NCBI GenBank assembly: GCA_027923965.1
Contig: AP026969.1
Location: forward strand, 248,001 to 312,000
DNA: 64,000 nt
DNA from: Comamonadaceae bacterium OS-1
GTDB taxonomy: Bacteria; Pseudomonadota; Gammaproteobacteria; Burkholderiales; Burkholderiaceae_C
Direction of reading: 5' to 3'
The notes below the pieces were generated by a model, which searched no databases, had not been told where the DNA came from, and saw only the letters and a list, made by a program, of their open reading frames with translations. Made by a program: the position numbers and the translations under genes. Of this stretch, positions 10,515-43,012 are shown piece by piece; the first letter of the stretch is position 1; each line of letters starts with the position of its first letter.

Positions 10515-10563
10515 TGGTGCCGGAGAGATGAATCGAACACCCGACCTTCTCATTACGAATGAG
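10515..10563 (-). other. tRNA-Thr 3'-half fragment, left attachment site
   Basis: 49 nt identical to the 3' part of the complete tRNA at 15133-15181 (including CCA), ending in the 14-nt core TCATTACGAATGAG (10550-10563). After the core the sequence departs from the tRNA. It marks the left junction of element 1 with the chromosome. Confidence 0.9.
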
Positions 10564-11031
10564 TTCCTAAGGTGAGGTAGCGATAGTCAGCGACATTCCA
10601 TGATAAACGGAATCAACAACTTACGTCGATCTTTGCGATTCATGCTGTCGCAAATTATCGCAAACAGTTGCTGTCGCTGTGCCATGAGTGTGCCACGGCA
10701 GCGCTGTCGGATCAACTGGCAAGTGGTGGGTGTGCCAGCGATCTAGATTTGACCTGTGACCGAACCGGACGCGTTATGAATAAGATAAGGAAGTGTTGAC
10801 GTAACGAAATGTGCTGTCTAGAGATAGAAGAAGACTGTACGCCAGCTATAGTACCGCTCGCCTTCAGACCTTTCGGTCCGAAGGTGGTCACAACACACAA
10901 CCGCATACTGGGCAAAAAAGCCCGCGATGTGATGCCAAATCCCCCAACTTAAACTTTCGAGAAAAAGCTTAAGGTGGAGGACGCGGGTTTGCTCGTAAAT
11001 TACCGCTATCTTACATTTTTCTGGGAAGTGG
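10564..11031. other. Non-coding left end of element 1
   Basis: No convincing gene. It holds TGTGCC repeats at 10678-10683, 10689-10694 and 10731-10736, proposed integrase arm sites. The rest shows nothing I recognise. Confidence 0.5.
10678..10694. repeat. Paired TGTGCC repeats, possible integrase arm site (left)
   Basis: Two TGTGCC hexamers spaced 11 bp start to start, 115 bp from the attachment core. The same pair occurs near the other two cores (15050 and 44917). Confidence 0.45.
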
Positions 11032-11946
11032 ATGACTTCTTTTATTGCATGGGTTGGCGTCGATCAGAGGGGGCCATCATCTTTATATTTTGCAAGTGAC
11101 AGCCGTGTTACCTGGGACAAGAAGAATCCTTGGGATGCCTGCAAAAAAGTCTTTGCTTGCAATAGCCAGCCTGAAGTCTTCGGATTTGTGGACTATCCGC
11201 TCCTACCGATGAATGCACTCACAAAGGCAGTGGCAGCGATTGACGCTGGTTTACGCCCCAAGCAAGCAGAATTATCCGCTGAGGGTCGGTGTGACTGGCT
11301 CTGGGAGCAGATAAAGTGGGAGGCCACAAAACATCCCAAAAATGAGCTTAAATCGTTCAATATTTTTTATGGCCTGAGAACTGGGAGCAAACATCCGATA
11401 AAGTTAGCAACCTCGGGCGAGGAGCAAGACGCTGACTTGGCAAGGTTCCATTTATTCGTTCTGTCATGGGACCATAAGGAGGAAGTTTGGTATGAGCGAA
11501 CCATCCAGGTGCCTTCAAAAGTATCCTCTGTATTGCACATCGACGGATCAGGCTTCGCGTCTATCAAAGACTGGACTGCTCGTTGGCACGAATCAGAGCA
11601 AAAAGACACGAGTCGGGTCGTTTTTTCTGCCTTTTGTGACTCGCTTGCATCGAATTCAGATGAGTCAAGCGGGGGAGCGCCACAGCTAGTGGGGACCTAC
11701 TGGGACAAAAATGCTCAAACTTTTGGGGTTCACACTCAAGCGCATGGGGCGACTTTCCAAGGGAGTCCATATAAAGGCTATGAGATGGGCGGTGTATCTT
11801 GGCGGAATTCACTTTTTGAGAGAGTAAATCCCTTGGGTACGTTATTGCCAAAGGCCCAACGCCATAGCCGTCCTAAATTAGGGAACCCGTCTATCGACCG
11901 CTTAGATGCTTCGCGGTTAGTCAAACTCGCTCACAAAGGACCGTAA
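11032..11946 (+). CDS. Proteasome-fold Ntn-hydrolase homologue
   Basis: 304 aa, ATG start. After Met removal Thr2 would be the N-terminal nucleophile (TSFIAWVG). ASDSRVT resembles the proteasome beta-subunit AADSRVT motif. D23 and K39 are 16 residues apart, as are proteasomal D17 and K33. G-S173-G and D210-x-x-S213-G-G match S129 and D166/S169, with the same spacings of 37 and 3. About 38 extra residues lie between K39 and S173, and about 80 follow the core. It is not HslV, and no ATPase partner is nearby. The next gene overlaps by 1 nt. Proteolytic activity is an inference from motif spacing only. Confidence 0.7.
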   Translation: MTSFIAWVGVDQRGPSSLYFASDSRVTWDKKNPWDACKKVFACNSQPEVFGFVDYPLLPMNALTKAVAAIDAGLRPKQAELSAEGRCDWLWEQIKWEATKHPKNELKSFNIFYGLRTGSKHPIKLATSGEEQDADLARFHLFVLSWDHKEEVWYERTIQVPSKVSSVLHIDGSGFASIKDWTARWHESEQKDTSRVVFSAFCDSLASNSDESSGGAPQLVGTYWDKNAQTFGVHTQAHGATFQGSPYKGYEMGGVSWRNSLFERVNPLGTLLPKAQRHSRPKLGNPSIDRLDASRLVKLAHKGP

Positions 11947-12329
11947 TGGCAAAGACTCTCGCCCAGATTCAGCAACAAATTCAGCAACTGCAAGACCAAG
12001 CCAGCGCTTTAAAGAAAAGAGAAGCGTCCGGAGTGATAGCCAAGATCAAGGTTGCAATCGAGGCGTACGGCCTAACGCCTGAAGATTTGTTTAGTGTGGT
12101 CCCAGCGGTAAAGGCGAAAAGAGCATCTAAAACAAGGAAGGTGTTGATAGCGGCACCAGACGTGAAAGTGGGGCGGAAGAAGGCACCTGCGAAGAAAAAA
12201 ACACCATCACCGCGGAAGTTCACGGATGGAACCAACTCTTGGAGCGGTCATGGAAAGCGTCCACAGTGGTTCAAAGATGCCCTCGAAGCAGGTAAGACGA
12301 TGCAAGACCTTGTAGTGCGTTTAAGCTGA
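11946..12329 (+). CDS. H-NS family DNA-binding protein
   Basis: 127 aa. The N-terminus is a short coiled coil (QIQQQIQQLQDQASAL), the middle is basic and Ala/Lys/Pro-rich (residues about 75-97), and the C-terminus carries the H-NS/Bv3F DNA-binding motif (TDGTNSWSGHGKRPQWFKDAL). Such nucleoid proteins silence horizontally acquired AT-rich DNA. It overlaps the Ntn-hydrolase stop by one base, so it is co-translated and may control this element. Confidence 0.85.
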   Translation: MAKTLAQIQQQIQQLQDQASALKKREASGVIAKIKVAIEAYGLTPEDLFSVVPAVKAKRASKTRKVLIAAPDVKVGRKKAPAKKKTPSPRKFTDGTNSWSGHGKRPQWFKDALEAGKTMQDLVVRLS

Positions 12330-12436
12330 TTCAGATGCAAGCTCGGGCAGATACCCTTGGATCACGAGACGATGCGCAGCCTTCAACCTTGAGCTGCATA
12401 TGGCGGACTTCTCCCCGCGGACCTTCGGCAATTGAC

Positions 12437-12772
12437 ATGTTTCAAGCGCTGATTGCTGAAGTTGAAAGGCCCTTGCAATGCATTCAATGCCTTTGGGTGA
12501 AGGAGCCACTGGGGTACGGAATTGAGGTGACAGCATTTTTTGACGGTGAAGGTAGGTATTCAGCCGTCTTGCTCGGAGGTGTCCATGGGGACGGTGAGCG
12601 GCGTGTCCTAGGAGGATGCTGCCCGCCGTTCCTGCTTGTTTCCGCGGCGGAAACGATCGGCGAGGAAATTGCCCTCCGGTTTTCAGCCGAGTTTTATTTC
12701 CCTTGGCGTGGACAGCCGAACGACCAATTCCCCTCGTGGCTGGACGTGCCGACTTGCGAGAGGCTTGGTTAA
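12437..12772 (+). CDS. Small protein of unknown function
   Basis: 111 aa if it starts at ATG 12437; the same frame is open from 12335. I recognise no family. It has an FFDGEGRYSAVLLGG segment and a CCPPFLL segment. It lies between the H-NS gene and the papain-like gene, on the same strand. Confidence 0.45.
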   Translation: MFQALIAEVERPLQCIQCLWVKEPLGYGIEVTAFFDGEGRYSAVLLGGVHGDGERRVLGGCCPPFLLVSAAETIGEEIALRFSAEFYFPWRGQPNDQFPSWLDVPTCERLG

Positions 12773-12843
12773 AACGGCCGCAACATCTCCCCGCCACCAC
12801 GCGTCCTCCTTGTGCTGCGAACATATCGACTAAGCTGAAATCC

Positions 12844-13518
12844 ATGCGCATTCAAACAATCTCATCACTGTCCCTGACCGAACACTGGGATGGGGTTAAA
12901 ACTCATACTGTTGCGAAACGACAAGGCCACCTCGATGGCGCCTGCGGACCTTATGCGTTGATGAACGCTCTCATGCTGTCGGGAGTCCTTACTGAAAAGC
13001 AAGTAAGCAAACTATGGGATGCGCCTGCCGATGGACGCACAGTACTTGGAAGGTGGAGTCGTTCCACCGAAGCGTTGATCCCCAACGGCACCGAAATAGA
13101 GAATTTGATGGAGTTGCTAAGAGGTGTTCAGCAGCAGGTCAAGAGAATTCCTGCGTTGGAAGTCGCGCAGATTGAACTTTCTGGCCGTAAAGAAGGAAAA
13201 CTGCTGGGCGGTCTTTGCGCTATTCAAGAGTGGATTGATCTGCACGATCAGCCCGTGCTAGCGACTCTTGGCTGGGACAAATACAGCGCCCATTGGGTAG
13301 TGGTTGTCGGCAGTCAGTACCATGAGCGAAATGGTAAGTACGGATTGTCCAACTTGCTGGCTGTTGATTCTGAAGAAGAATCCTCGTGCACTCAGGCTTG
13401 GAACGCAGTCTTAGGCCTTGGGGATATCGGCGCGAAGCGACTGCGTTACACATCACCCTCGCGGCATGAGTCGACTCCTTGTGATCTTCTCAGTGCGTTC
13501 GGGATTTTGACGGTATAA
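12844..13518 (+). CDS. Papain-like putative cysteine peptidase
   Basis: 224 aa with ATG at 12844. LDGACGPYALMNAL (Cys34) looks like a C39/papain-type nucleophile motif, SAHWVVVVG (His150) like the catalytic histidine, and LLAVDSEEE (Asp175) like the third residue, in the normal Cys-His-Asp order. No transmembrane or ABC part is attached. It is the fourth rightward gene after the Ntn-hydrolase homologue, so two different potential proteases share one short cassette. The substrate and the family name remain unknown to me. Confidence 0.6.
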   Translation: MRIQTISSLSLTEHWDGVKTHTVAKRQGHLDGACGPYALMNALMLSGVLTEKQVSKLWDAPADGRTVLGRWSRSTEALIPNGTEIENLMELLRGVQQQVKRIPALEVAQIELSGRKEGKLLGGLCAIQEWIDLHDQPVLATLGWDKYSAHWVVVVGSQYHERNGKYGLSNLLAVDSEEESSCTQAWNAVLGLGDIGAKRLRYTSPSRHESTPCDLLSAFGILTV

Positions 13519-13592: not shown

Positions 13593-14768
13593 CTATTTCG
13601 ACAGGCTATTCCAGTCTTTAGCTAACCCGTAAATATCCGGCATCCAGTTCTCCGCATTACTGAACACGACCACCATACGGTCAGAGTTGTTGTCCCAGCC
13701 GATGCGTTGACCTCCCCAGCCCACAGCCCACGATGTATTCGGGGCCATCGTACTGTCCGTCCAAGTTAAATAGCCGTAGCCGTCAAACAAGGTGCCTGCC
13801 TTGCGAGCGGCGCGGTTGGCATCGTTGGCGATCTGGGTGGTCGCAGATGCCCTGACAAATTCACCGAAACATCCGGTCTCCTTGGACGACTGCTTGACCC
13901 ATAAGGCAAACCGCATCCAGTCCTCCATATGCATGCGGAAACCGCTATCTGCCAAGCCATTTTTCGCACGATCTTGTTGGTAGATACCGGGCAATGCCAC
14001 CCCCATCGGATCCAGCACTTTTGCCTGCATCCATTGGTCGGCGGTGATGCCCGTCGCACGACTCACCATGATTCCAAGCACAAAGGGATCGGTTTGCTTG
14101 TATGAAAAATGCTCTCCTGGCTTGTATTCAGAAAACACACCTCTGGCCGCTTTGGCAACCCGGTCGTCGGATACCAAGTCCACCAAATTCAATTCGCCGG
14201 TCTTCCATGCCTGAAACTGCGCAGGTGTCCATACCGAACTGTCCGCGTTTGGCTCTGCGCCACCGGATGCCATACGCAGCAAATCTCGCACCGTCGCTTT
14301 GCCCAAGGCCTTGCCGTTTAATTCGGGCATCAGCTCGCTGGCCGCTGTTTCCATTTTGAGCTTGCCATCGCACAGGGCTTGCCCCACCGCCATCGCAGTC
14401 ACAGTCTTGCCCATGGAGAAACCGCTGAGGTACGAGTCATCGTCCGCCGGTGCTTTGTATTCCTGGTACAGCACCTTGGCGCCATCCATCAAAGCAATGG
14501 CTTTCGCGGGCCGGTTTGCGAACAAGGTGCGGGCGCGCTCGATAACTGCCTGCTCTTGAGCCGTGGGCGTTGCCTTTTGCAACTGAACCGGATGCAGGCT
14601 GGGTTGGATGTCATACCACCATCGCGAACCTTTCCGTGCGAGGAGCCAGTCATCCGGCGTGCTCGCCGCACCGCCGTCTTTGAGCATGTTCTGGGCATGC
14701 AGTGGTGGGCATAGAACAAGTGTCGAAATGGCGATATGGACCGCTGCGGCAAGGGTGCGTATTTTCAT
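13593..14768 (-). CDS. Secreted class-C beta-lactamase-like serine hydrolase
   Basis: 391 aa with a signal peptide (hydrophobic residues 5-25, cleavage near HAQ). The SxxK motif is FSMGK, and the Tyr motif appears as SYKQ rather than YxN. The KTG box is replaced by WGGQR. This is the broad beta-lactamase/penicillin-binding family (PF00144), which also includes esterases. It is convergent with the papain-like gene and stands alone. Confidence 0.85.
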   Translation of the reverse strand: MKIRTLAAAVHIAISTLVLCPPLHAQNMLKDGGAASTPDDWLLARKGSRWWYDIQPSLHPVQLQKATPTAQEQAVIERARTLFANRPAKAIALMDGAKVLYQEYKAPADDDSYLSGFSMGKTVTAMAVGQALCDGKLKMETAASELMPELNGKALGKATVRDLLRMASGGAEPNADSSVWTPAQFQAWKTGELNLVDLVSDDRVAKAARGVFSEYKPGEHFSYKQTDPFVLGIMVSRATGITADQWMQAKVLDPMGVALPGIYQQDRAKNGLADSGFRMHMEDWMRFALWVKQSSKETGCFGEFVRASATTQIANDANRAARKAGTLFDGYGYLTWTDSTMAPNTSWAVGWGGQRIGWDNNSDRMVVVFSNAENWMPDIYGLAKDWNSLSK

Positions 14769-15132: not shown

Positions 15133-15208
15133 TGGTGCCGGAGAGATGAATCGAACACCCGACCTTCTCATTACGAATGAGCTGCTCTACCGACTGAGCT
15201 ACACCGGC
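15133..15208 (-). tRNA. tRNA-Thr (anticodon CGT)
   Basis: 76 nt cloverleaf with encoded CCA: acceptor GCCGGTG/CTCCGGC (one T-T mismatch at pair 6), D-arm GCTC/GAGC, anticodon loop TTCGTAA, T-loop TTCGATT. It resembles the thrW-type tRNA used as an integration site in other bacteria. It is the only complete copy of three in the window; the attachment core (15168-15181) covers the anticodon arm. The 3' half is identical to 10515-10563 and the 5' half to 45006-45046. Confidence 0.95.
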
Positions 15209-17513: not shown

Positions 17514-19901
17514 ATGGATCACTCAACACATAACAAGATCGTCTCGTTCATCTGGTCAATCGCAGACGACTGCCTTCGTGATGTATTTGTTCGCGGCAAG
17601 TACCGCGATGTCATCCTGCCGATGTTTGTTCTGCGCCGCCTTGACTGCCTGCTGGAGTCGTCAAAAGACACGGTCCTTGAAGAAGTGCGTTTCCAGCGTG
17701 AAGACGCAGACATGGCCGACCTCGACCCCCATGGTCTCCGCGAAGCCTCCGGCTACGTTTTCTACAACACGTCAAAGTTCACGCTCAAGTCCCTGCTGGG
17801 TAATCCGTCGCAGCTCGAAGCCAACCTCAAGAACTACCTTGATGGCTTTTCGGACAACGTCAAAGAGATCGTTGATAAGTTCGACTTGCGCAACCAGATT
17901 CGCAAGATGGCACAGTCGGACGTGCTACACGACGTGATCGAGAAGTTTGTGGCGGAGGAAATCAACATCAGTCCTGGCGACCGCAAGGGGCCAGATGGCC
18001 GCACCCAGCCAGGCCTGTCAAACCTTGGCATGGGCTACGTGTTTGAAGAACTGATCCGCAAGTTCAACGAAGAAAACAACGAAGAGGCTGGGGAGCACTT
18101 CACGCCGCGTGAAGTTATCAACCTCATGACCAATCTGGTCTTCATACCGGTTAAAGATCAACTCCCCAATCCACTCACGATCTATGACCCTGCGTGTGGC
18201 AGCGGTGGCATGTTGACCGAATCGCAAGACTTCGTAACGGACGCGGAAGGCGAGATCAAGGCTAAGGTGGGCGTGTTCCTGTACGGCAAAGAAATCAACC
18301 CCGAGACTTACGCCATTTGCAAGTCCGACATGATGATTAAGGGCAATGATCCCGAGAACATCAAGTTTGGCTCGACGCTGGCAACCAATGATTTTTCGGG
18401 TACGCGCTTCGACTTCATGTTGAGCAACCCACCCTATGGAAAGTCTTGGAAGGGCGATCAAAAGGGCATCATTGAAGGTAAAGAGGTTCTCGACCATCGT
18501 TTCCAAGTGAATCTGTCGGACTACACCGGCGAAAGTTTCGATTGGTTTCCTGCTATCCCGCGTTCATCAGATGGCCAGTTGCTGTTTCTGATGGAAATGG
18601 TGGACAAGATGAAGCGGCGCTCAGACCTGAGTGACAAGAACGCCACGCGCTTTTCGGGCTCTCGCATTGCCTCTGTGCATAACGGTTCAGCCTTGTTTAC
18701 AGGCGATGCGGGCGGCGGAGAAAGCAACATCCGCCGTCACATTCTCGAGAACGACTTTCTCGAAGCCATCATCCAGTTGCCGAACAATCTGTTCTACAAC
18801 ACGGGCATCACGACCTATGTGTGGTTGCTGTCCAACCACAAGGCGGCAAAACGGCAAGGCAAGGTGCAACTGATCGACGCATCCAACCTGTACCAGAAGT
18901 TGCGCAAAAACCTTGGCGAGAAGAACTGTGAATTTACCGCCGAGCACATTCAGCAGATCACCCAGCTTTATCTGGACCTTGCCGACGAAGGCGTATCAAA
19001 GGTCTTCGACAACCGGGACTTTGGCTATTACAAGGTCACAGTAGAGCGCCCCTTGCGTCTGGCCGCGCAGTTCAGCGCCGAACGCATTGCCACCCTGCGC
19101 TTCACACCGGGCATGCAAGAGATCATGGAATGGGTCTTTGGCAAATACGGCGACGAGGTATATACCGACCTCAAGTCCCATGCCGAAGCCATTGAGAACC
19201 ATCTTGAGCGCGAAGAAATCACCCTTTCGCCCAAGAACCGCAAAGAACTGCTGGCACAGACCACATGGCAGGCCCAGCGCGACATCATGCTGGCCGCACA
19301 GCAGATTGCCGCCAAGGTGGGAGCAGACGAACACCTCGATTTCAACTTGTTTGAAACCATGGTGGATGAGGCTTGCGCCGCCTTGAAGTTGAAGCTTTCC
19401 AAGCCCGAGCGCAAACAGGTTTTGAATGCCGTGAGCTGGCGCGACCCACGGGCTGCCAAAGTTATCAAGAAGCAGCACAAGCTGAGCGGCTCCAAACTTA
19501 AAGACCTGCTCTCGGAATTGCAGACCACCGCCAAGCGGCTGGGTGACTATGGCTATTGGCCCCAATCGTCCCAGTCCAGCAAGGCAGGCGAATTTATCGA
19601 ATACGAACCCGACAGCGAATTGCGCGACACCGAGAACGTGCCCTTGGCCAAGAGCAAGGTGCCCACTGCCTCCAGCGTTATTCATGAATACTTCATTCGA
19701 GAGGTGCGCCCCCACGTTGACGAGGCGTGGATTGCGCTCGATAAGACAGTGATTGGCTACGAGATCAGCTTCAACAAGTACTTCTATCAACACAAGCCAT
19801 TGCGCAGCCTCGAAGAAGTGACGGCGGAAATCCTCGCTTTGGAAGCTGAAACCGATGGCCTGTTGAAACAACTGGTCAGCTTTGTATCGGGAGCCAAGTG
19901 A
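17514..19901 (+). CDS. hsdM: Type I restriction-modification methyltransferase HsdM
   Basis: 795 aa adenine methyltransferase and core subunit of the type I complex. The N-terminal HsdM_N helical domain is followed by SAM motif I (DPACGSGGM, about residue 224) and catalytic NPPY (about residue 304). The protein is about 270 residues longer than classical HsdM, the extra C-terminal part being charged and helical. It forms one operon with the GmrSD-like gene, hsdS, a PIN-like gene and hsdR. Confidence 0.95.
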   Translation: MDHSTHNKIVSFIWSIADDCLRDVFVRGKYRDVILPMFVLRRLDCLLESSKDTVLEEVRFQREDADMADLDPHGLREASGYVFYNTSKFTLKSLLGNPSQLEANLKNYLDGFSDNVKEIVDKFDLRNQIRKMAQSDVLHDVIEKFVAEEINISPGDRKGPDGRTQPGLSNLGMGYVFEELIRKFNEENNEEAGEHFTPREVINLMTNLVFIPVKDQLPNPLTIYDPACGSGGMLTESQDFVTDAEGEIKAKVGVFLYGKEINPETYAICKSDMMIKGNDPENIKFGSTLATNDFSGTRFDFMLSNPPYGKSWKGDQKGIIEGKEVLDHRFQVNLSDYTGESFDWFPAIPRSSDGQLLFLMEMVDKMKRRSDLSDKNATRFSGSRIASVHNGSALFTGDAGGGESNIRRHILENDFLEAIIQLPNNLFYNTGITTYVWLLSNHKAAKRQGKVQLIDASNLYQKLRKNLGEKNCEFTAEHIQQITQLYLDLADEGVSKVFDNRDFGYYKVTVERPLRLAAQFSAERIATLRFTPGMQEIMEWVFGKYGDEVYTDLKSHAEAIENHLEREEITLSPKNRKELLAQTTWQAQRDIMLAAQQIAAKVGADEHLDFNLFETMVDEACAALKLKLSKPERKQVLNAVSWRDPRAAKVIKKQHKLSGSKLKDLLSELQTTAKRLGDYGYWPQSSQSSKAGEFIEYEPDSELRDTENVPLAKSKVPTASSVIHEYFIREVRPHVDEAWIALDKTVIGYEISFNKYFYQHKPLRSLEEVTAEILALEAETDGLLKQLVSFVSGAK

Positions 19902-21772
19902 TGCAAGAAATCCAAGGCAAGACCCGCACGGTGCGCGAACTGCTGTCCGGTGCCAAGTACGGTATCGACTACTACCAGCGCGAATACAAGTGGCAGACCA
20001 AGCAGATGGTTGAGCTTGTGTCTGACCTAACCGGCGCGTTTCTGGAGGACTATCAAGAAGCCCATCAACGCGCCGACGTTGCCAATTACGGCCACTACTT
20101 TCTTGGCTCCATTGTCATCAGCCAGCGCAAGAACGAGCAGCAGATCAGCGAACGCCTGATTGTTGACGGCCAGCAGCGCATGACCAGCCTGACTTTGCTC
20201 TTGCTCTACTTGCACAGCCAGCAAAAAGACCGCGACGATGCGGAACCCGTTGAAGAGCTGATCTTCTCCAAGAAGTTTGGCACTAAGTCCTTCAACCTGA
20301 ATGTGCCGGAGCGCAATGACTGCATGGAAGCCTTGTTTGATGGCAAGGGCTATGACACTGCCGATCAGTCCGAATCGGTTCATAACCTGATTGGGCGCTT
20401 CCACGATATTGGCGATGCTTTCCCGCAAGACATATCCGGCACCAAGGCGCTGCCTTATTTTGTCGATTGGTTGCTGGAGAAGGTGCACTTGGTGGAAATC
20501 ACGGCGTACGCCGATGCAGATGCGTACACCATCTTCGAGACCATGAATGACCGTGGCCTTTCCTTGAGCAACACCGACATGCTCAAGGGCTACCTGCTGG
20601 CCAGCATCACCGATGCGACCAAGCGGGCCGAGGCCAACAAGGAAATCAAGCAATGGCTGTTGACCTTTGCCAAGCGGGACAACGACCGCGACACGAAGGA
20701 AACTGAGGCTGATTTCTTCAAGGCATGGCTACGTGCCAAGTACGCTGGCGACATCCGTGAACGGAAGAAAGGTGCCAAGCCAGAAGACTTTGACCTGATC
20801 GGCACGGAGTACCACCGGTGGGTGCGTACCAATCACGAGTTGGTGGGGTTGAACGTCAGCGAAGACTTCAACCGCTGGGTTAAACAAGACCTGCGCTTCT
20901 TTGCCCGTGTGTACCTGGAATTGCTGGAGGCTTGCGAGGGCTTGAAGCAGGGGCTTGAGTCTGTTCGCTTCAATGCGGACCACGGTTTTACCCAGCAGTT
21001 TCAGGTGCTGCTGGCACCGCTGCTGCCCACGGATGACGAGGCCACAGTCAGGACCAAGTTGCGTCTTACCGCTGACTATCTGGACTGCTGGTTGAATCGC
21101 CGCCTGTGGAACTTCAAGTCCATCGACTACTCCACCTTGCAGTACGCCACTTTCCTACTGACCAAGGAACTGCGCAACCTGTCGCTGGAAGCATTGAGCC
21201 AGAAGCTGATTGCACGTCTGACCAGCGACGAGAAGGAGTTCCCGCTTGAAGATCAGCCGTCGCTGATTAACTGGAATGCCAAGAGCCTGCACCGCCAGTT
21301 GGCCCGGTTCACTCACTGGGTTGAAGAACAGAGCGGCCAGCCGGGGCGCTATCTGGAATACATCGTGCGCTCTGGCAAAAACGCCTACGAAATCGAACAC
21401 CTGTGGGCCAACCACTTCGAGCGCCATGCAGATGAATTCGCCCATGCGCAAGAATTCGCCAGCTACCGCAACCGCATCGGCGGCCTTGTCCTGCTACCCA
21501 AGAAGATCAATGCCAGCCTGAACGACAAGACCTTTGCCGACAAGGTGGCGCACTACCAGAAGGAAAACTTGCTGGCGCGTTCGCTGCACAGCGCCTGCTA
21601 CCAGCACAACCCCGGCTTCTTGCAATTGATGGCACGCACCGGCCTGCCATTCAAGTCGTTCAATGAATTCAAGAAGGCCAGTTTCGACGAACGCTATGCT
21701 GCTTACCAAGGCATCGCGAGGCAGTTGTGGTCACTGAGCCGCTTGCGGGAGGTGGCGGATGCAACAGTATGA
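19901..21772 (+). CDS. GmrSD-like DUF262/DUF1524 nuclease
   Basis: 623 aa. The N-terminal DUF262 half has YQREYKW and the NTP-binding IVDGQQRM (about residue 86), plus ETMNDRGLSLS. The C-terminal DUF1524 half has the His-Me finger nuclease signature IEHLWA (about residue 499) and GGLVLLPKKINASLN. This matches GmrSD-type modification-dependent restriction enzymes. Start: ATG at 19901 overlaps the hsdM stop by one base; a GTG three bases earlier is possible. It overlaps hsdS by 14 nt, so it is translationally embedded in the type I operon. Confidence 0.88.
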   Translation: MQEIQGKTRTVRELLSGAKYGIDYYQREYKWQTKQMVELVSDLTGAFLEDYQEAHQRADVANYGHYFLGSIVISQRKNEQQISERLIVDGQQRMTSLTLLLLYLHSQQKDRDDAEPVEELIFSKKFGTKSFNLNVPERNDCMEALFDGKGYDTADQSESVHNLIGRFHDIGDAFPQDISGTKALPYFVDWLLEKVHLVEITAYADADAYTIFETMNDRGLSLSNTDMLKGYLLASITDATKRAEANKEIKQWLLTFAKRDNDRDTKETEADFFKAWLRAKYAGDIRERKKGAKPEDFDLIGTEYHRWVRTNHELVGLNVSEDFNRWVKQDLRFFARVYLELLEACEGLKQGLESVRFNADHGFTQQFQVLLAPLLPTDDEATVRTKLRLTADYLDCWLNRRLWNFKSIDYSTLQYATFLLTKELRNLSLEALSQKLIARLTSDEKEFPLEDQPSLINWNAKSLHRQLARFTHWVEEQSGQPGRYLEYIVRSGKNAYEIEHLWANHFERHADEFAHAQEFASYRNRIGGLVLLPKKINASLNDKTFADKVAHYQKENLLARSLHSACYQHNPGFLQLMARTGLPFKSFNEFKKASFDERYAAYQGIARQLWSLSRLREVADATV

Positions 21773-23048
21773 GAGATACAAACCCAGCGGTGTAGAGCGT
21801 CTGGGGGAAATCCCCGAGCATTGGAGTCTCAAAAGGGTCAAGCATATCCACACGGTCAATCCATCAGGAAATTCCTCAAGGGCAGGCGAATTGGTTACGT
21901 TTGTTCCGATGGAAGCAATGAATAGCGATGGCACCTTCGATATTCACCGACAAGGGCTTAGACAACTATTTGGTCCATCACTTACAGAGTTTCAAGTCGG
22001 CGATGTTCTGCTGGCAAAGATCACACCTTGCTTTGAAAACGGCAAGGGGGCACTTGTCAGTGATTTGCCCACACCGAAAGGAATCGGGTCAACCGAGTTT
22101 CATGTTTTTCGACCTTCGGCGACGATAAACCCGAAGTTCACCTACTACCTACTGCACAACGACGCATTCCGGGTAGCTGCAGTTCCTTTTATGGAAGGCA
22201 CTGCGGGTCAAAAGAGAATTACGACTCCGTTTGTAAAAAATCTACTAATAGCATTACCTCCCCGTCAAGAGCAAGATCGCATCGTCACCTTTCTCGACCG
22301 GAAAGCCACTGAAATTGATGCTGCGATTGCAAAGAAGAAGCGATTAATTGATTTTTTTCAAGAGCAAAAGGACATTCTGATTACTCAAGCTGTTACCAGA
22401 GGCCTAAATCCAATGGCACGTATGCGCGACAGCGGCGTTACGTGGATTGGTCAAGTGCCTGCTCATTGGCAGCAAATGGCAAACCGTACGCTTTTCCGCG
22501 AACGCAAGGAGTCCGGCCATGCTGATTTTCCGATTCTTTCTGTTTCACTTCATACGGGAGTTTCCGACGAAGAACAGGATGACACAGAGAACGTACGGGC
22601 AAAAATCCGCATTGAGGATAAAACCAGCTACAAACGGGTTCGACCCGGTGATGTCACGTACAACATGATGCGTGCATGGCAAGGGGCTATTGGCGTGGTT
22701 CGCGTTGATGGTCTTGTCAGTCCTGCATACGTGGTTGCCGCACCACTCGCCACCATCAACGGCGCTTACTTCGAGTATCTCTATCGCACCCATGGATTCA
22801 TTCGCGAGATGGACCGCTACTCGAAAGGGATTACCGATTTCAGAAAACGGCTGTACTGGGATGAATTCAAACAGCTTGTTTCGCTCCTGCCGCCGCTGGA
22901 TGAACAGATTCAAATAGCAGCCTACGCTGAGCAGATCATCAATCAAACATCAGCTTTGACAGAAAAGATTCGAGATCAGATTGAGGCACTGAATGAATTT
23001 CGCGCATCCTTGATTGAAAATCTGGTGACAGGAAAAATAAAAACCTAA
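21759..23048 (+). CDS. hsdS: Type I restriction-modification specificity subunit HsdS
   Basis: 429 aa with two target-recognition domains (about residues 15-165 and 220-375), each followed by a conserved helical spacer (LPPRQEQDRIVTFLD and LPPLDEQIQIAAYAE). Each half starts with the characteristic WIG/LGEIPEHW motif. It fixes the bipartite DNA target, which cannot be predicted here. Overlaps the preceding gene by 14 nt. Confidence 0.95.
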   Translation: MQQYERYKPSGVERLGEIPEHWSLKRVKHIHTVNPSGNSSRAGELVTFVPMEAMNSDGTFDIHRQGLRQLFGPSLTEFQVGDVLLAKITPCFENGKGALVSDLPTPKGIGSTEFHVFRPSATINPKFTYYLLHNDAFRVAAVPFMEGTAGQKRITTPFVKNLLIALPPRQEQDRIVTFLDRKATEIDAAIAKKKRLIDFFQEQKDILITQAVTRGLNPMARMRDSGVTWIGQVPAHWQQMANRTLFRERKESGHADFPILSVSLHTGVSDEEQDDTENVRAKIRIEDKTSYKRVRPGDVTYNMMRAWQGAIGVVRVDGLVSPAYVVAAPLATINGAYFEYLYRTHGFIREMDRYSKGITDFRKRLYWDEFKQLVSLLPPLDEQIQIAAYAEQIINQTSALTEKIRDQIEALNEFRASLIENLVTGKIKT

Positions 23049-23063: not shown

Positions 23064-24101
23064 GTGTTCGTCGAATCAATCATCAGTGAGCAATGGGTAC
23101 TAAACGGGCAACCTCACGGGGAGCGTCCAGACGCTGAGGATGTGCTGTACATCAAACCACTGCTGCAAAGCCGTGGGAAAACTGCTGCGGGCACGTCGGT
23201 ACTTCACTCACTGATTCTCGACAACAACGTTTTTAATGATCTTGTCGAGAATCGCAGGCCTGAAAACAATACATTCATCGCGGATCTATTGCGCAGTACC
23301 CCAATTGAATTAAATCCAACCTTTGCGATGATTGAGCAGAGGCAGACCTATGCTGGTGCCCCGGAAAAACTAAAAGAATACGCTGAACTTCTTGAACGTA
23401 CTTTCGGATGGTCCGCAGCAAAAGTCGGATCGGCCGAATTCGAGACATCGCTTGCTGAGTCAAGGGTGGCGATCAAAACCAACATCGAGTTGTTGTCGGG
23501 CTATCTTGCCGCAACAGTCTTTTTGTATCACCAAACTGCCCCTGCCAGCGAAAAGCTGAAGTGGCTGGCTGGCATGGTGGAAAACTCAGACCTCCCGTTC
23601 TTTCAGCTCCATTTTTACTTCGCGGCGCTGGTATTCCTTGCCGCGGAGTCGCCATCACTATTTCACCCAAAAGATCTGAAGAAGATCAAAAGTGATATGA
23701 AAGTTGCCTCCAGCTATGAGGAGCAGAAGGCGAAGCTCTCAAATCTGTCTAACGACTTGGCCTTGCCAACACTGGCAATATTTCCGGCAGCAAATTTAGG
23801 GAATGCACTTGTTTTTCCATACGTAGCAACGCGCGACAGGCTCGTTCAGCTATTTTTGAGCGAGATCAGTTGCCAGATGATTGTGGATGCTGGCAATGGC
23901 CGGGCAAATGGCTCTTGGGTGCTGAAAAGCACGGGCATTATCAAGACGAATCTGGGTGACGCAGTGGAAGCGCATATCCCCCGTCGCTACGTTGCGTCTT
24001 CAAAGGACGACGTGGCTGTACGTAAGGTAAGACTGGGAGCCTTCACTGAGCAGTACACAAAGCTCTGCGTTGAGTCGAAGATACACAGCAAAGCGGTATA
24101 A
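23064..24101 (+). CDS. PIN-like domain protein in the type I operon
   Basis: 345 aa, GTG start 15 nt after hsdS. The segment HSLILDNNVFNDLV (about residues 48-61) resembles the first acidic motif of PIN nucleases, with a later conserved-looking FAMIEQR; the rest is helical. I assign only a PIN-like possibility. Its place between hsdS and hsdR suggests a role linked to restriction, for example an extra nuclease or a regulator. Confidence 0.5.
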   Translation: MFVESIISEQWVLNGQPHGERPDAEDVLYIKPLLQSRGKTAAGTSVLHSLILDNNVFNDLVENRRPENNTFIADLLRSTPIELNPTFAMIEQRQTYAGAPEKLKEYAELLERTFGWSAAKVGSAEFETSLAESRVAIKTNIELLSGYLAATVFLYHQTAPASEKLKWLAGMVENSDLPFFQLHFYFAALVFLAAESPSLFHPKDLKKIKSDMKVASSYEEQKAKLSNLSNDLALPTLAIFPAANLGNALVFPYVATRDRLVQLFLSEISCQMIVDAGNGRANGSWVLKSTGIIKTNLGDAVEAHIPRRYVASSKDDVAVRKVRLGAFTEQYTKLCVESKIHSKAV

Positions 24102-24120
24102 AAGGTCAATAGGGAACAAC

Positions 24121-27078
24121 ATGGTCAGTCAAACCAACGAAGCTGCGCTTGAATCGCATATCGAAAACGCACTTGCGAAGGACGGCTATCGCATTGGCGA
24201 TCCGGCTGACTTTGACCAGGAGTTCGCTGTTGACGGCAAACTCTTTTGGGAGTTTCTCGAAGCGACCCAGCCCAAGGAATTGGCGAAGCTGAAAGACCGA
24301 CCCAACTGGCAGCGGCTGGTGTTGGAGCGGCTGAACAAGAGGATCAAAAAAGACAGCGTACTGGCCGTGCTGAAGAAAGGACTGGACATTGACGATGCCC
24401 ACTTCGATCTGCTCTACCGCCTGCCATACAACGACCTCAACCCCGAGGTGGTTGCCAACTTTGAGGCCAATCGCTTCAGCGTGACCCGGCAGGTGCATTA
24501 CAGCCAGACGGACACCTTCAAGTCGGTGGACATGGCCCTGTTTGTCAACGGTTTGGCGGTGGCGACGCTGGAACTCAAAAACCCGTGGACTGGCCAAAAC
24601 GTGCAGAACGCCGTTCGCCAGTACCGTACCGACCGCGACCCCAAGGAACCACTGTTCGAGTTTGGGCGCTGCTTAGTGCATTTCGCCGTGGACCCGGATG
24701 AGGCTTTCATGTGCGCGCAACTGGCGGGCAACGACAGCAACTTTTTGCCGTTTAACAAGGGTTTCAACTACGGCAAGGGCAACCCGGTCAATCCGAATGG
24801 GCACAAGACGGCGTACCTGTGGCAAGACATTCTGCCGCGCCGCAGCCTGACCAACATCATTGAGCAATTCGCCAAGTTCACGGTCGAGAAAGACAAAAAG
24901 ACCGGCAAGGAGCGCAAGGCCCTGTTTTTCCCCCGCTATCACCAGCTCGACGTGGTGCGCGGCATTCTGCAGGATGCCCAGCAGAAGGGCGTGGGCCAGA
25001 CCTACCTGATTCAGCATTCGGCAGGTTCGGGCAAATCCAACTCCATCACATGGCTGGCGTATCAACTGGTGGAGCAGTACGACACCACGGGCACCGCGAA
25101 TCTGTTTGATTCCGTCGTGGTGGTGACAGACCGGCGCGTGCTAGATACCCAGCTCAAGGACAACATCAAGTTGTTCTCTGAAACCAAGAACATCGTTGCC
25201 CACTGCGAAAGCGCACAGGAGCTGAAGTACAACCTTGAGCTTGGCAAGAAGATCATCATCACAACGGTGCAGAAGTTCCCTTTCATCGTGGATGGCATCG
25301 GGCAACTGTCTGACCGCAAGTTTGCTGTCATCATCGACGAGGCGCACTCTTCCCAATCGGGCGTGGCTGCAGACAAGGTGAATGAAACCTTGGCGGGCCA
25401 AGACGGTGATGAGCCGGTGGATGTGCAAGACCAGATTCTGGCGGCGATGAACGAGCGCAAGATGAGCAAGAACGCCAGCTACTTTGCGTTCACCGCCACG
25501 CCCAAGCCGGCCACGCTGGAAAAGTTTGGTCGCCAATCCGCCGACGGCAAGTTCTACCCCTTCCACCTGTATTCCATGAAGCAGGCCATTGAGGAGAAAT
25601 TCATCCTCGATGTGCTGGAAAAGTACACGACCTATAAGAGCTACTACGAGGTGCAGAAGTCGGTGGAGGACAACCCGTTGTTCGACACCGCCAAGGCGCA
25701 GAAGAAGCTTAAAGCTTTTGTCGAAGCTAGCCCCAGGACCATTGAGGTGAAGGCCAAGATCATGGTTGATCACTTCACAGCCAGCGTCTGGCAAGCCAAG
25801 AAGCTGAAGGGCAAAGCCAAGGCTATGGTGGTGACGCGCAATATCGAATGCGCCATCCGCTACTTCTTTGCCATACGTACCGCGCTGACGGAGGCCAATG
25901 CGCCGTTCAAGGCGCTGGTGGCCTTCTCCGGCGAAAAGATGGTGGACGGCATCAAGCACACCGAAGACTCTTTGAACGGCTTTTCTGTGCGTGACTTGCC
26001 CGATGAATTTGAGAAGGACGATGCTAAGATTTTGGTGGTTGCCAACAAGTACCTGACTGGCTTTGACGAACCCATGCTGCACACCATGTACGTGGACAAG
26101 AAGCTGCAAGGCGTTCTGGCGGTGCAGGCGCTGTCCAGGCTCAACCGCTGCAACTGGAAACTGGGTAAGAGCGATACCTTTGTGCTCGACTTCTACAACT
26201 CCGTGGACGACATCAAGGCGGCGTTTGACCCTTTCTACACGTCCACCAGCCTGAGCGAGCCAACGAACGTGAATGTCTTGCACGATCTAAGGGGCGAGCT
26301 GGACAAGTTTGGTATCTATGACTGGGCAGATGTCACGACCTTCAACGAGAAGTTCTTTGCCAGCGCCGAAGCCGAAGAACTCGCCCCTATCATCGACACG
26401 GTGGTGGCCCGCTTCGATGCCGACTTAGACGACGAGGAGCGCATTGACTTCAAGATCAAGGCCAAGCAGTTCGTCAAGATTTACGCGCAGGTGGCGGCCA
26501 TCATCCCGTTCAACAACGTGAACTGGGAAATGCTGCACTGGTTCCTGAAATTCCTGATCCCCAAGCTGAAGGTCAAAGACCCTGACCAGGACAAGCTGGA
26601 CGAGTTGCTGAACAGCATTGACCTATCGACCTACGGGTTGGAACGGTCACGGCTTGAAGCCAAGATTGGCCTTGATGCTGGTGAAGCCGAACTTGATCCG
26701 CAGAACCCGAATGTGCGTGGCCCTCATACTGGGCCGGGCGATGTGGATTCGTTGGAGGCGATTGTTCGCACCTTCAATAATCGGCACTTCGCTGGTTGGG
26801 AGGCCACGCCGGAGGAGCAGCGCGTCAAGTTCATCAATATCGCCAAGCATGTGGTGAATCATGCCGATTACAAGGTACAGGTCGAGGACAACCCTGATGC
26901 GCAGAACAGGCAGTTGGCTCTGGAGAAGCTGATTCAACATGCCGTCAGCATCGAGCGTCGCCGGGAGTTGGACTTGTACAAGCGTTACGCTGGTGACGCT
27001 GATTTCAAGCGGGCTTTTGATGCGAGCATTTCGAGGTTGCTGAGCATGGGCGACTTGAATGGTCGGCTCAACGGCTGA
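24121..27078 (+). CDS. hsdR: Type I restriction endonuclease HsdR
   Basis: 985 aa motor and nuclease subunit that translocates and cuts unmethylated DNA. The N-terminal PD-(D/E)xK nuclease shows VDMALFVNGLAVATLELKN (about residues 135-155). The SF2 helicase has HSAGSGKSN (about 303), DEAH (about 405) and FTATPK (about 455). ATG at 24121 is preferred over an upstream start that overlaps the PIN-like gene. It is the last gene of the R-M operon, followed after 16 nt by the DUF4297-like gene. Confidence 0.95.
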   Translation: MVSQTNEAALESHIENALAKDGYRIGDPADFDQEFAVDGKLFWEFLEATQPKELAKLKDRPNWQRLVLERLNKRIKKDSVLAVLKKGLDIDDAHFDLLYRLPYNDLNPEVVANFEANRFSVTRQVHYSQTDTFKSVDMALFVNGLAVATLELKNPWTGQNVQNAVRQYRTDRDPKEPLFEFGRCLVHFAVDPDEAFMCAQLAGNDSNFLPFNKGFNYGKGNPVNPNGHKTAYLWQDILPRRSLTNIIEQFAKFTVEKDKKTGKERKALFFPRYHQLDVVRGILQDAQQKGVGQTYLIQHSAGSGKSNSITWLAYQLVEQYDTTGTANLFDSVVVVTDRRVLDTQLKDNIKLFSETKNIVAHCESAQELKYNLELGKKIIITTVQKFPFIVDGIGQLSDRKFAVIIDEAHSSQSGVAADKVNETLAGQDGDEPVDVQDQILAAMNERKMSKNASYFAFTATPKPATLEKFGRQSADGKFYPFHLYSMKQAIEEKFILDVLEKYTTYKSYYEVQKSVEDNPLFDTAKAQKKLKAFVEASPRTIEVKAKIMVDHFTASVWQAKKLKGKAKAMVVTRNIECAIRYFFAIRTALTEANAPFKALVAFSGEKMVDGIKHTEDSLNGFSVRDLPDEFEKDDAKILVVANKYLTGFDEPMLHTMYVDKKLQGVLAVQALSRLNRCNWKLGKSDTFVLDFYNSVDDIKAAFDPFYTSTSLSEPTNVNVLHDLRGELDKFGIYDWADVTTFNEKFFASAEAEELAPIIDTVVARFDADLDDEERIDFKIKAKQFVKIYAQVAAIIPFNNVNWEMLHWFLKFLIPKLKVKDPDQDKLDELLNSIDLSTYGLERSRLEAKIGLDAGEAELDPQNPNVRGPHTGPGDVDSLEAIVRTFNNRHFAGWEATPEEQRVKFINIAKHVVNHADYKVQVEDNPDAQNRQLALEKLIQHAVSIERRRELDLYKRYAGDADFKRAFDASISRLLSMGDLNGRLNG

Positions 27079-27094: not shown

Positions 27095-28181
27095 ATGCCA
27101 TTTCACGATCATCTAAATGATTCGCTCACGAAAGAGCGCGGCGGTCGGCATGGCGGAAAAGGTCACGAGTTTCAACGGTATTGGGCGCTCTGCCACTTGC
27201 TAAAGCTTGACCTCGAACAAGATGACTACCTTCTGCTTATTGAGTTCATTGAGGATGTAGCGGTACTCGATACGGCCGTTACTCCGACGAAACTTAATCT
27301 CTTCCAGATCAAGAAAAAAGGAAGGTGCAGTAGGAGCCAAGTGGACTAAGACAACTTTGGCGAAGCCCCCGAAAGAAGGGGTTTCAATTCTGGCAAAGCT
27401 GTTTGAATCCAAACGCATATCGCCCGACTCCACTGCATCAATTGCCTTCGTGAGCAATGCCCCTGTTGATTTGACTCTTCATGATGGAAGTGAATCGACT
27501 GAGAGTGAACGGTTTAATGCCGACCATATAGAAAAGGAGTTGAAGGAGTCACTGCAAAAATCTATTGCAGGAGAACTCAAATGCACGGAGGCAGACATTG
27601 AATTCGGGGCGCTTACGTTCGTCAAGAGTCCGCTCGCAATGGATGATCTGGAAAATCACGCAATTGGCCGAGTTTCGTCGTATCTAGGCCAGAAATTCCC
27701 CACGCATGGAGCAAGGGCCGATGTTTTTTGCAAGGCGCTCTACGGCGAACTCAAAATCAGAGCGACATCAACTCAGGATGCATCCACGTTTGAAGAACTT
27801 TGCCAGATAAGAGGAATCGCCAAAAGTCAGTTCAATGAAATGCTTGCAACGACTCTGGCCAGAAAACCGGACAGCGAAATTATTGACGCAGCAATAGCTG
27901 GGCTGGTTCAGGAAAACGTTTCGTTTGTTGATCGCAATAAGGTGAAAGACGGTGCCCGCCGCTACTTGATTGACAAAGCAGGCAAAGGAGGTGCGGTCGT
28001 GGCATTGCTTGAGCAATCCATTGAGCTACAAATGCCAGCGATTCCGAACACCTTGGTCGCATCTTGGGATGTTGCCAAGTGGATTGAAAATGAAATTTCA
28101 ACATCCACTAACTCTTCGACATTGTCCATGCTTGATAACCACTATCTGCTCGCGGCGATTCTCTACAGGATCAATCAATGA
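27095..28181 (+). pseudogene. DUF4297-type nuclease, frameshifted
   Basis: Two adjacent frames belong to one protein of about 362 aa. The first (27095-27349) has the DUF4297 start, KGHEFQRYWALCHLL, and ends FQIKKK before leaving the family pattern. The second (from 27357 as an open frame, but readable from about 27320) gives KWTKTTLAKPPKEGVSIL. Removing one A from the A6 run at 27314-27319 joins them exactly. DUF4297 is found in Cap4-like DNA endonuclease effectors. It may be a broken gene, a slippage-controlled gene or a sequence error. An ATPase gene follows. Confidence 0.7.
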
Positions 28182-28408
28182 GCAAGCTCAACAACACACT
28201 CCGCTTGGTAAGAAATTTAAGGAAGGGCAAACATGAGAAGTTTGCGATTCAAAAAGCTCTGGCTCGTATCCGAAGCATCGAGAGCAGCGCGCAGCATCGA
28301 ATTCAATCCGAAGATGACCTTGCTGGTGGGCAAGAATCACACGGGGAAATCGACGCTGGTCAAACACATATTCAAGACGCTGGGGTGCGAGACCAAGGGC
28401 AAGTCTGA
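28178..28408 (+). CDS. Small overlapping ORF between DUF4297 and ATPase
   Basis: 76 aa. Its ATG overlaps the DUF4297 stop (ATGA), the usual sign of coupling, but 176 nt overlap the ATPase gene in another frame. Only the first 20 residues or so (MSKLNNTLRLVRNLRKGK) lie outside that overlap. It could be a small middle component of a three-gene ATPase system or just a coupling leader. Confidence 0.3.
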   Translation: MSKLNNTLRLVRNLRKGKHEKFAIQKALARIRSIESSAQHRIQSEDDLAGGQESHGEIDAGQTHIQDAGVRDQGQV

Positions 28409-29981
28409 CCGCTGGGATAGCCTAGCAATATCCGTTCTGCGTTTTGATCTTGATGGCGTTGATTACCTTGCGTATCGACGTGCAAATGTCTATGCCTTAA
28501 AGAATGAGTCCACTGGCACGATCAAGGTTACGACAAAGTACAGTGAATGGTCGAACTTACTGGCACACCTTTTCGATTTCCACTTGATGTTGCCAACGCA
28601 TCAAGAGTCACTGTCACAGGCGACGCCCCCATTTCTGTTCTTGCCGTTCTATTTCGATCAGGATGGAAGTTGGCAAAAGCAATGGAACTCTTTTGAGAAA
28701 CTGAGCCAGTTTTCCACGTGGGCAAAGCCTCTTACCTCGTATGTGACTGGACAACGCCCAAACGGTTATTACATTGCGAAATTTGAAGAGACAAAAGCCA
28801 AGGCCGAAGCCACAAAAGTTGCTCACGAACTTGGCGTCGTTCAATCTGCCTTGGTTCGCGTCAAAAAATCTCTGCCTCGTACGACCTTGCGCATTGATGC
28901 AGGAGCTTTCAAGCAAGAGATAGCTGATCTACTCAGGAGTTCAACCCAGTTGAATCAGGAGCAAGAGTCTCTTCGGAGCAAAGCCTTTGAACAAGCATCC
29001 GTCAAAGAATCGCTGAGTACGCAAATAGCGATGGCAAAGGACGCATTGCGCGATCTGGAGGGCGACTTGAAGTACCTTACCGAAAGCAAGGTCGAACCAA
29101 CGTTGCTCTGCCCCACTTGCGGCACTACACACGAAAATGGTTTTCCAATTCGCCTTGAGCTTGTTGATGATGCGGAAACTCTTAGAAAAATAATCGCTGA
29201 ACTGGAGTCAGAACGTCAAAAAGTTGATGAAGTTTTAGCCGGAATTCAAGGGAGACTGAACCGGGTAAGACTAAAGTCTCATGAGATTGAGAAGACTTTG
29301 AAAATAAAAAAGGGCGCGTTGCGTTTACAGGACGTAGTTGATAGTCAGAGTTCGGAAGTTGTCCGAGCCGCATTCTCTAAGGACATGGACTCTTTGAAAC
29401 GGCAACTTATAAAGCATGAGGAAATTTCCGCTGATCTCAAAGAGAAGGTCTCTAAATTTGATTTGCCAGAGCGAACCAAAGAGATAAATAGTTTCTATGC
29501 GGAACGGATTGAACTCTTTGTCAGTGAGTTGGGCGTACAAGACCTACGCGAGGATGTTAAGAAGAAACCCGACGCGAACATCACAGCCAGCGGAAGTGCT
29601 TTGCCAAGGTCGTTACTCGCATACCAGTTCGCAGTGTTGCATACGGCAAAAGAAAAGGGTGATGCGAAGTTGTTCCCTGTCGTGGTAGATTCCCCCAATC
29701 AACAAGGTCAGGATGCAGAACACCTGACTCAAATGTTAAATTTCATTGTTAAACGTACACCTGCTGAGCAACAACTAATACTTGCGGTCGAAGAAAGACC
29801 CGTTGGGTTAGTGTTCGACGGCACAATTATTGAACTCCAAGCCCCATACGGATTGCTAGACACATCTCAATACGAAACGATTTCAGGTGAACTGCAAAGC
29901 CTAGTTTCCGAAATTGCAGAGGGGGTTGACAGGCGTCTCGCGAATCAACGCATCGAAGTAATCAAAGAACCTTTGAATTAG
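28233..29981 (+). CDS. Rad50-like coiled-coil ATPase (ABC-3C-like)
   Basis: 582 aa. Walker A is GKNHTGKST (about residues 33-41). A long coiled coil holds a CPTC zinc-hook-like motif at about residue 292, and Walker B appears as FPVVVDSPNQQGQD near residue 482. This SMC/Rad50-type plan, next to a DUF4297-type nuclease, resembles the ABC-three-component conflict systems. The short 5' gap and shared strand place it in the same transcript as the R-M operon or directly behind it. Confidence 0.8.
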   Translation: MRSLRFKKLWLVSEASRAARSIEFNPKMTLLVGKNHTGKSTLVKHIFKTLGCETKGKSDRWDSLAISVLRFDLDGVDYLAYRRANVYALKNESTGTIKVTTKYSEWSNLLAHLFDFHLMLPTHQESLSQATPPFLFLPFYFDQDGSWQKQWNSFEKLSQFSTWAKPLTSYVTGQRPNGYYIAKFEETKAKAEATKVAHELGVVQSALVRVKKSLPRTTLRIDAGAFKQEIADLLRSSTQLNQEQESLRSKAFEQASVKESLSTQIAMAKDALRDLEGDLKYLTESKVEPTLLCPTCGTTHENGFPIRLELVDDAETLRKIIAELESERQKVDEVLAGIQGRLNRVRLKSHEIEKTLKIKKGALRLQDVVDSQSSEVVRAAFSKDMDSLKRQLIKHEEISADLKEKVSKFDLPERTKEINSFYAERIELFVSELGVQDLREDVKKKPDANITASGSALPRSLLAYQFAVLHTAKEKGDAKLFPVVVDSPNQQGQDAEHLTQMLNFIVKRTPAEQQLILAVEERPVGLVFDGTIIELQAPYGLLDTSQYETISGELQSLVSEIAEGVDRRLANQRIEVIKEPLN

Positions 29982-31040: not shown

Positions 31041-31174
31041 GATTGTGGTGAAGGTTAATGTTAAGTATTCGTTCGTCAGCCGACTTTGAACAAGCGGCAC
31101 GGTGGCCGCTGGTGTTTGAGCTGGTAGGTCTGGCGATGCGATGCCGAATGGCGGGGCCCGTGCGGGAAAGGCGA

Positions 31175-31582
31175 CTAGGTTGCTGTGTCCGGTGGCGCAA
31201 AGTCGGCGGTGTGACGGCGGCACGGTGCAGATAGCTCAAAGCAGATGGCTGCACCCGTCCCCAACTCGGACAGCAACCAACCGATGGCCTCAACGGTGTC
31301 TTGGCCGACTGTGCCGTCATCGATCTCTGGCGATGCATGCGCCAGTAACTGGCCGATGGCCGCCACGCCCAGGTTGAATGTGCTTTGCAGCACCTCGGCG
31401 GATTCCGCGAGTTGCACCAGTAATGCCGGTGACGCAGCGTCGAAGTCTGGTCGGCCTTGGGCGCTTACAGGCAGTTGCGGCAGCAGTAGCAGCAAGTCGC
31501 GCATGGGCTGATGTGCATGCGATCCGACGATCAATACGTAGGGGTTTGAGCGTCGGCGCGCCGTGGCATATAGTTGCGCCAT
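31175..31582 (-). CDS. Unknown accessory protein
   Basis: 135 aa, ATG at 31582, directly after the gene at 31585 (2-nt gap), so they are likely co-transcribed. It contains VLIVGSHAHQPMRDLLLLL and a long helical middle; no family recognised. The C-terminal 20 residues look poorly conserved. Confidence 0.55.
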   Translation of the reverse strand: MAQLYATARRRSNPYVLIVGSHAHQPMRDLLLLLPQLPVSAQGRPDFDAASPALLVQLAESAEVLQSTFNLGVAAIGQLLAHASPEIDDGTVGQDTVEAIGWLLSELGTGAAICFELSAPCRRHTADFAPPDTAT

Positions 31583-33484: not shown

Positions 33485-33547
33485 CGGACGCTCAATGACA
33501 TAGCTCAGCGGACGCCGAAGGCGGTCCTTTGGAGCAAATTGTTAGGC
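33485..33547 (-). other. Partial attC-like site of cassette C
   Basis: On the minus strand GCCTAAC (33547-33541) is followed by the inner inverted repeat GGACCGCC-TTC-GGCGTCC. The outer GTTRRRY box is not found, so the array appears cut here. The TAA of the preceding gene lies within GCCTAAC. Confidence 0.45.
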
Positions 33548-34279: not shown

Positions 34280-34296
34280 AGTGCTCCCCCTAGAAG

Positions 34297-41804: not shown

Positions 41805-43012
<1,208 letters not shown>

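Follow-up and report, generated by a model that had tools for sequence, protein, structure and literature searches.

A gene in a 64,000-nucleotide stretch of the genome of Comamonadaceae bacterium OS-1 (contig AP026969.1, positions 248,001 to 312,000; hereafter the window) codes for a stand-alone hydrolase with the proteasome β fold, of the N-terminal nucleophile (Ntn) type, from a family that is widespread but sparse. We propose, with somewhat less than even confidence, that members of this family use an exposed Thr2 to cut a specific target, and that they are often island cargo engaged in phage or mobile-element conflict. The gene is as follows.

11032–11946, plus strand: proteasome-like Ntn-hydrolase, 304 aa, ATG start; Met1-Thr2, Asp23, Lys39, Ser173, Asp210, Ser213; Asp54; C-terminal extension.

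The gene is present in a single copy in the 5.12-Mb genome; a Shine-Dalgarno-like GGAAG lies upstream of its start, and the reading frame is open for 304 codons. An earlier reading of the DNA letters (the sequence-only reading) had recognized six proteasome residues, T2, D23, K39, S173, D210 and S213, and all stand where it placed them. The spacings it gave, 16 residues from D to K, 37 from S to D and 3 from D to S, are likewise correct; they were compared with T1, D17, K33, S129, D166 and S169, which we take to be the proteasome equivalents. The Thr/Asp/Lys triad of proteasome-like Ntn-hydrolases is present as T2, D23 and K39. When 76 family members are aligned, Lys39 is found in 76 of 76, Asp23 in 75 and Thr2 in 73, with serine in one other (L021) and two rows trimmed at that residue. 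Asp210 is retained in 70; Ser173 is serine in 55, threonine in 19 and another residue in 2; and the Ser213 position is shared among serine (34), cysteine (23), threonine (14) and valine (5). Conservation across these members argues that the named residues are not there by chance. By this measure the nucleophile Thr2 and the Asp23/Lys39 pair are strongly constrained in the family, and the positions of Ser173, Asp210 and Ser213 are less constrained than the sequence-only reading implied. Homologues without Thr2 and Lys39 had been named as grounds for giving up the assignment; relatives retain both residues, so the assignment survived its own test.

A predicted structure lacking the four-layer Ntn fold had been the other such ground. 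The predicted model has the proteasome β fold, with helices H1 at 57–71, H2 at 77–81 and 83–100, H3 at 175–186 and H4 at 194–207. The large insertions proposed earlier are not all borne out: the H3/H4 loop has 7 residues, so that this region is of proteasome length, and the extra length lies mainly in a loop at 118–137 of low predicted local distance difference test (pLDDT) score, in short additions, and in a C-terminal extension with a helix at 286–299. Sequence comparisons did not detect this relationship. The Pfam family PF00227 (HslV/proteasome/Anbu/BPH) does not match the protein, for which 0 families were found at E up to 1; searches of PDB sequences with the single sequence and with a profile gave 0 matches; and profile comparison with HslV, Anbu and BPH from within the genus was not significant, the best, BPH, reaching E 0.0075 at 5.8 bits versus 8.1 bits for a random open reading frame (ORF). 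By fold and triad the protein is proteasome-like, but it does not belong to HslV, Anbu or BPH in the sense of the PF00227 model.

A feature overlooked in the sequence-only reading is Asp54. Residue 54 is glycine in 75 of the 75 other aligned members, the closest relatives L013 (49% identity to the window protein) and L006 among them, and is aspartate in the window protein only. Its place where the strand leading into H1 ends and a weak alignment with BPH make it the apparent equivalent of Gly47, the oxyanion glycine of the proteasome (PMC8665760). An apparent oxyanion glycine is therefore found in the family and is missing from the window copy, in which positions 37, 52, 56 and 58 also depart from the family consensus. 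The unique Asp54 suggests that the activity of this copy may have been lost or changed.

The family is sparse at every level surveyed. A member was found in 1 of 60 relatives (the gene's own genome only), in 2 of 369 genomes of the class and in 5 of 398 of the phylum, own genome included in both. With one genome scanned per GTDB species, 102 pattern matches were obtained, 72 of which encode relatives, a lower bound since the patterns were strict. The phyla represented include Pseudomonadota, Bacteroidota, Bacillota, Actinomycetota, Acidobacteriota, Cyanobacteriota, Planctomycetota and others. On the family tree (73 rows, 10 of them in no group) there are 18 changes of phylum, where the minimum possible is 13 and the shuffled mean 37.2; phyla are partly clustered with some mixing, which is not by itself proof of transfer. 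Two IMG/VR scans each found the same 2 loci with family members, and a phage collection gave no match. Among the matches listed in a literature search, no paper was found that gives this family a function.

Neighbourhoods elsewhere provide the functional lead. The 134 nearest-neighbour proteins (150–800 aa, from 75 loci) include 6 Pfam matches to Phage_integrase, 4 to DUF3800 and 2 to Resolvase; among 134 random genes these three were absent from the best 25 of 146 families, so at most one each, and one recombinase was present. The background is 27 DUF3800 matches per 100 genomes and 446 Phage_integrase matches per 60 genomes (summed from a table). At L006 the Ntn gene is separated from integrase pieces by a tRNA-Gly, and at L057 it is separated from a tmRNA gene by an integrase.

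Candidate partners were considered and rejected. A fixed partner of the Ntn gene was rejected because no cluster of neighbours occurs at more than 4 of 81 loci. DUF3800, described beside Cas12a2 as an RNase H-like nuclease fold (PMC10910872), accounts for 4 of the 134 nearest neighbours and is at most an occasional one. By motif and by a purpose-built profile it is found at L007, L010, L022 and probably L014 (E 0.002), and by eye somewhat further off at L006; these loci are separated in the family tree. An HEPN RNase as regular partner had been suggested by same-strand downstream genes with R-x4-7-H motifs seen by eye, and failed since 7 of 10 picked proteins have no Pfam HEPN match. The match is clear at L058 (RiboL-PSP-HEPN, E 1.1e-29) and weak at L031 (E 0.0027) and L055 (E 0.0022), and HEPN neighbours are a lead only. 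The L058 gene (6862–7536) lies on the same strand, 36 bp downstream of the Ntn homologue. In a viral contig (L007) and a Pseudomonas chromosome (L025), the genes that follow the Ntn homologue downstream, at 12 and 27 bp, are similar; they (L007:6850–7665 and L025:6859–7656) have no convincing Pfam match and bear an R-x7-H motif by eye. On an Agrobacterium plasmid, about 5.5 kb separate the Ntn homologue from a gene for a “multiubiquitin domain” protein (L002:12326–12813).

In the window itself, the gene lies on a 4.6-kb segment that adjoins a 29.8-kb element at a tRNA-Thr gene. The cargo of the segment comprises the Ntn gene and the four genes or reading frames listed here with the repeats.

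10515–10568, minus strand: left end repeat of the island, made up of the 3′ portion of a tRNA-Thr gene; 54-nt direct repeat, 96%, with 15133–15186.
11946–12329, plus strand: H-NS family protein, 127 aa; its ATG overlaps the Ntn stop codon (TAATG).
12335–12772, plus strand: 145-aa ORF with no detected relatives, which may or may not be a gene.
12844–13518 (ORF open from 12616), plus strand: C39-peptidase-like protein, 224 aa; Cys34, His150 and Asp175 conserved.
13593–14768, minus strand: serine hydrolase of the β-lactamase/DD-peptidase fold (PF00144), 391 aa.
15133–15208, minus strand: complete tRNA-Thr(CGT) with direct repeats, junction of the 4.6-kb segment and the 29.8-kb element.
45006–45046, minus strand: right end repeat of the second element, made up of the 5′ portion of tRNA-Thr; 41-nt direct repeat, 100%, with 15168–15208.

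In the congener G004 about 880 bp separate the same two chromosomal flanking genes, and the tRNA-Thr in that interval is intact and identical. Their distance is about 2.4 kb in G006, 7.0 kb in G005, 7.3 kb in G002 and 19.3 kb in G003, so that the spacing over six congeneric genomes runs from about 0.9 to 35 kb; in G007 the flanking genes fall on separate contigs, and a search of G001 found neither. The repeats, the intact site and the variable spacing indicate a tRNA-Thr(CGT) hotspot at which the window carries two segments in tandem. G006 has DNA related (69%) to the PF00144 hydrolase gene, and the G003 insert contains a C39-like ORF (E 2e-7). None of the five proteins scanned on the 4.6-kb segment was recognized as an integrase; either integrase of the 29.8-kb element could act on this segment in trans.

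These observations, taken with the analogy to the well-studied proteasome, suggest how the enzyme might work. Threonine at position 2 permits removal of the initiator methionine, and methionine aminopeptidase would thus expose Thr2. Its hydroxyl, with a pKa lowered by Lys39 and Asp23, would attack the carbonyl of a peptide or amide; the oxyanion would be held by the backbone NH of residue 54, and a specific substrate would be cut or acylated. As the sequence-only reading held, no unfoldase gene is recognized beside the Ntn gene; general degradation is thus unlikely, and the substrate is likely to be specific, and folded or short. Going by what surrounds them, members are often cargo of integrative islands and defence neighbourhoods, and most likely serve as protease effectors or regulators in such conflict. 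The window gene would have been carried in on the 4.6-kb segment inserted at tRNA-Thr, with the H-NS-like and C39-like genes as co-passengers and the H-NS-like protein plausibly silencing incoming AT-richer DNA, as H-NS-like genes on mobile DNA are described to do (e.g., PMC7074111). The neighbourhoods point to conflict with phages or mobile elements, which would be the most likely biological role of the family.

Several points weigh against this proposal. Homology to the proteasome rests on a modelled fold, on residue order and on the active site, with no significant profile match. The island location of members does not prove a role in conflict. A recombinase profile seeded and iterated on family loci, and biased in their favor for that reason, found a match no further than 2.2 kb away at 12 of 80 loci (at six of these no further than 350 bp) versus 1 of 20 random 12.8-kb regions; a neutral profile, seeded on the window's two integrases alone, matched 3 of 80 loci (803 kb) versus 0 of 20 controls (256 kb), which is uninformative and proves nothing. 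Family neighbours match 258 PADLOC models versus 23 for random genes, counts of redundant models rather than of proteins, with control genes drawn from Pseudomonadota only and family loci from many phyla. Clustering by BLAST of 951 called genes, window included, placed no neighbour family at more than 4 of 81 loci (clusters at 3–4 loci include recombinases), and the want of a recurring partner means that no conserved system is defined. Finally, Asp54 argues against full activity of the window copy.

A functional lead for the family nevertheless now exists, in integrative islands and in neighbours rich in defence models, where Fuchs et al. 2021 reported no genomic context or co-occurrence indicating a function for the new proteasome homologues (PMC8665760). 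It makes possible an inexpensive test, in which relatives with the full active site are set against phages, and the Asp54 copy offers a natural experiment in which the apparent oxyanion glycine has been replaced. A more specific version of the proposal, possible but on the doubtful side, is that a single-gene proteasome-fold threonine protease is an undescribed anti-phage or anti-mobile-element protein. Carried as island cargo over many phyla, sometimes beside DUF3800 nucleases, an HEPN protein or other defence genes, it would cut one target upon infection, and the Asp54 copy would be a variant with altered chemistry.

It is also conceivable, though rather unlikely, that the window copy is a decaying passenger or pseudo-enzyme, in which the fold has been kept, the change from glycine to aspartate at the oxyanion position has ended catalysis, and the protein is inert or only binds its old substrate. 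Asp54 and the other off-consensus positions are what such decay might leave; the gene was not found in 7 other congeners searched, two of them incomplete, and its segment has no recognized integrase. However, the six named active-site positions are intact, the 304-codon frame is open and a Shine-Dalgarno-like motif stands before it. Moreover, a backbone NH is available from any residue, so loss of activity through Asp54 is not certain.

Less probable still is a specific protein ligase or transpeptidase like archaeal connectase, or an amidase that processes one small substrate, in place of a defence protease. Connectase is a proteasome-like protein ligase (PMC8665760), and a lone gene with no recognized unfoldase suits a substrate-specific enzyme. 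The same source describes connectase as lacking H1–H2, both of which are present in the window model, and no substrate gene recurs nearby.

The sequence-only reading had joined the Ntn gene, its H-NS-like neighbour and a papain-like protein in a cassette serving conflict, silencing or protein processing. The H-NS-like gene is confirmed: PF00816, the H-NS C-terminal DNA-binding domain, matches with E 1.1e-10 and 41.6 bits (cut-off 25.6), PF22470, the N-terminal oligomerisation domain, falls under its cut-off (E 0.036), and relatives on Variovorax, Polaromonas and Methylibium replicons are annotated H-NS. The cysteine-peptidase-like gene most likely starts at 12844. As a potential cysteine peptidase it gains from C34, H150 and D175, which are invariant in the window protein and 4 relatives, and again in the window protein and 3 near-alike relatives; one C39-like relative is annotated “C39 family peptidase,” and HcuA is the annotated name of a C39-like relative. 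The AlphaFold2 model, from an alignment of four sequences only, is too low in confidence (pLDDT 36.9) to show a papain-like fold, and there is no Pfam match at E up to 1. The 145-aa ORF has no family match, no match near other family loci and no plasmid match. A scan for promoters and terminators found sites no more numerous than in shuffles.

The cassette itself does not hold up. Searches with the H-NS-like and 145-aa proteins as single queries, and with the C39-like protein as query and profile, matched no neighbour ORF at 80 other distinct Ntn loci, the closest relatives L013 and L006 included, within up to 6 kb per side (the full 6 kb on both sides at 37 of the 80, many contigs ending sooner); the sole other match was weak (E 0.03) and fell on an Ntn homologue itself. 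Conversely, the Ntn profile found no match in the short flanks of 11 C39-like loci, which are 10 distinct places since two overlap. The three genes are very probably not one cassette, and the H-NS-like and C39-like genes look like co-passengers of the tRNA-Thr island. That all three act jointly in silencing or protein processing is highly improbable, even though the overlap of the H-NS start with the Ntn stop makes co-translation of these two probable in this strain, and one genome (G513) contains a member of each of the Ntn and C39-like families, not on the same contig. The joint module is largely refuted, and the conflict role that was named with it keeps a possible basis in the neighbourhoods.

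Genes of the second element (15187–45005) include those for a type I restriction system and GmrSD, for a nuclease of the Cap4 type accompanied by an AAA protein, and for two integrases of the tyrosine class.

17514–19901: HsdM.
19898–21772: GmrSD, inside the type I operon.
21759–23048: HsdS.
24070–27078: HsdR.
27357–28181: Cap4-type nuclease, with the AAA protein at 28233–29981.
30060–31223 and 43304–44548: integrases.
36892–38283: G2P-like replication protein.
42125–43012: transposase with integrase core (rve).

It also holds a second cysteine-peptidase-like gene at 33545–34336, for a permuted papain-like amidase (PF05708, Peptidase_C92, E 1e-7), near an OmpA-like gene (E 4.6e-5, under cut-off), and a 245-nt direct repeat of 82% identity (31872–32116 and 33033–33277).

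The window protein was compared with known proteasome-like proteins. It shares 12–13% identity with the 20S β subunit (M. tuberculosis 2fhg, 3mka), and unlike that subunit it has no propeptide, has a C-terminal extension, has aspartate at the apparent Gly47 position and has no unfoldase gene recognized nearby. No significant profile match links it to Anbu (5nyw, 5lox), and the host has a separate gene that we take to be Anbu-like. An HslV-like gene is also present elsewhere in the host, and two congeners have a BPH-like gene (names given from sequences). The adjacent HslU unfoldase of HslVU is absent from the five proteins that were scanned on the 4.6-kb segment. BPH and HslV are, like the window gene, single-gene bacterial proteasome homologues, and no unfoldase is known for BPH (PMC8665760); both are described there as compact and without C-terminal elements, in contrast to the extension seen here. 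By their published description (PMC8665760), PMI-2 to PMI-6 have an insertion between H3 and H4 that the window protein lacks; it may nevertheless belong to another of the 22 families of proteasome-like proteins published by Fuchs, Alva and Lupas in 2021 (PMI-1, GPH and others), from which the fold search does not separate it. As described in that paper (PMC8665760), those families likewise combine the proteasome fold and a function that is unknown with a patchy distribution over phyla and some phages.
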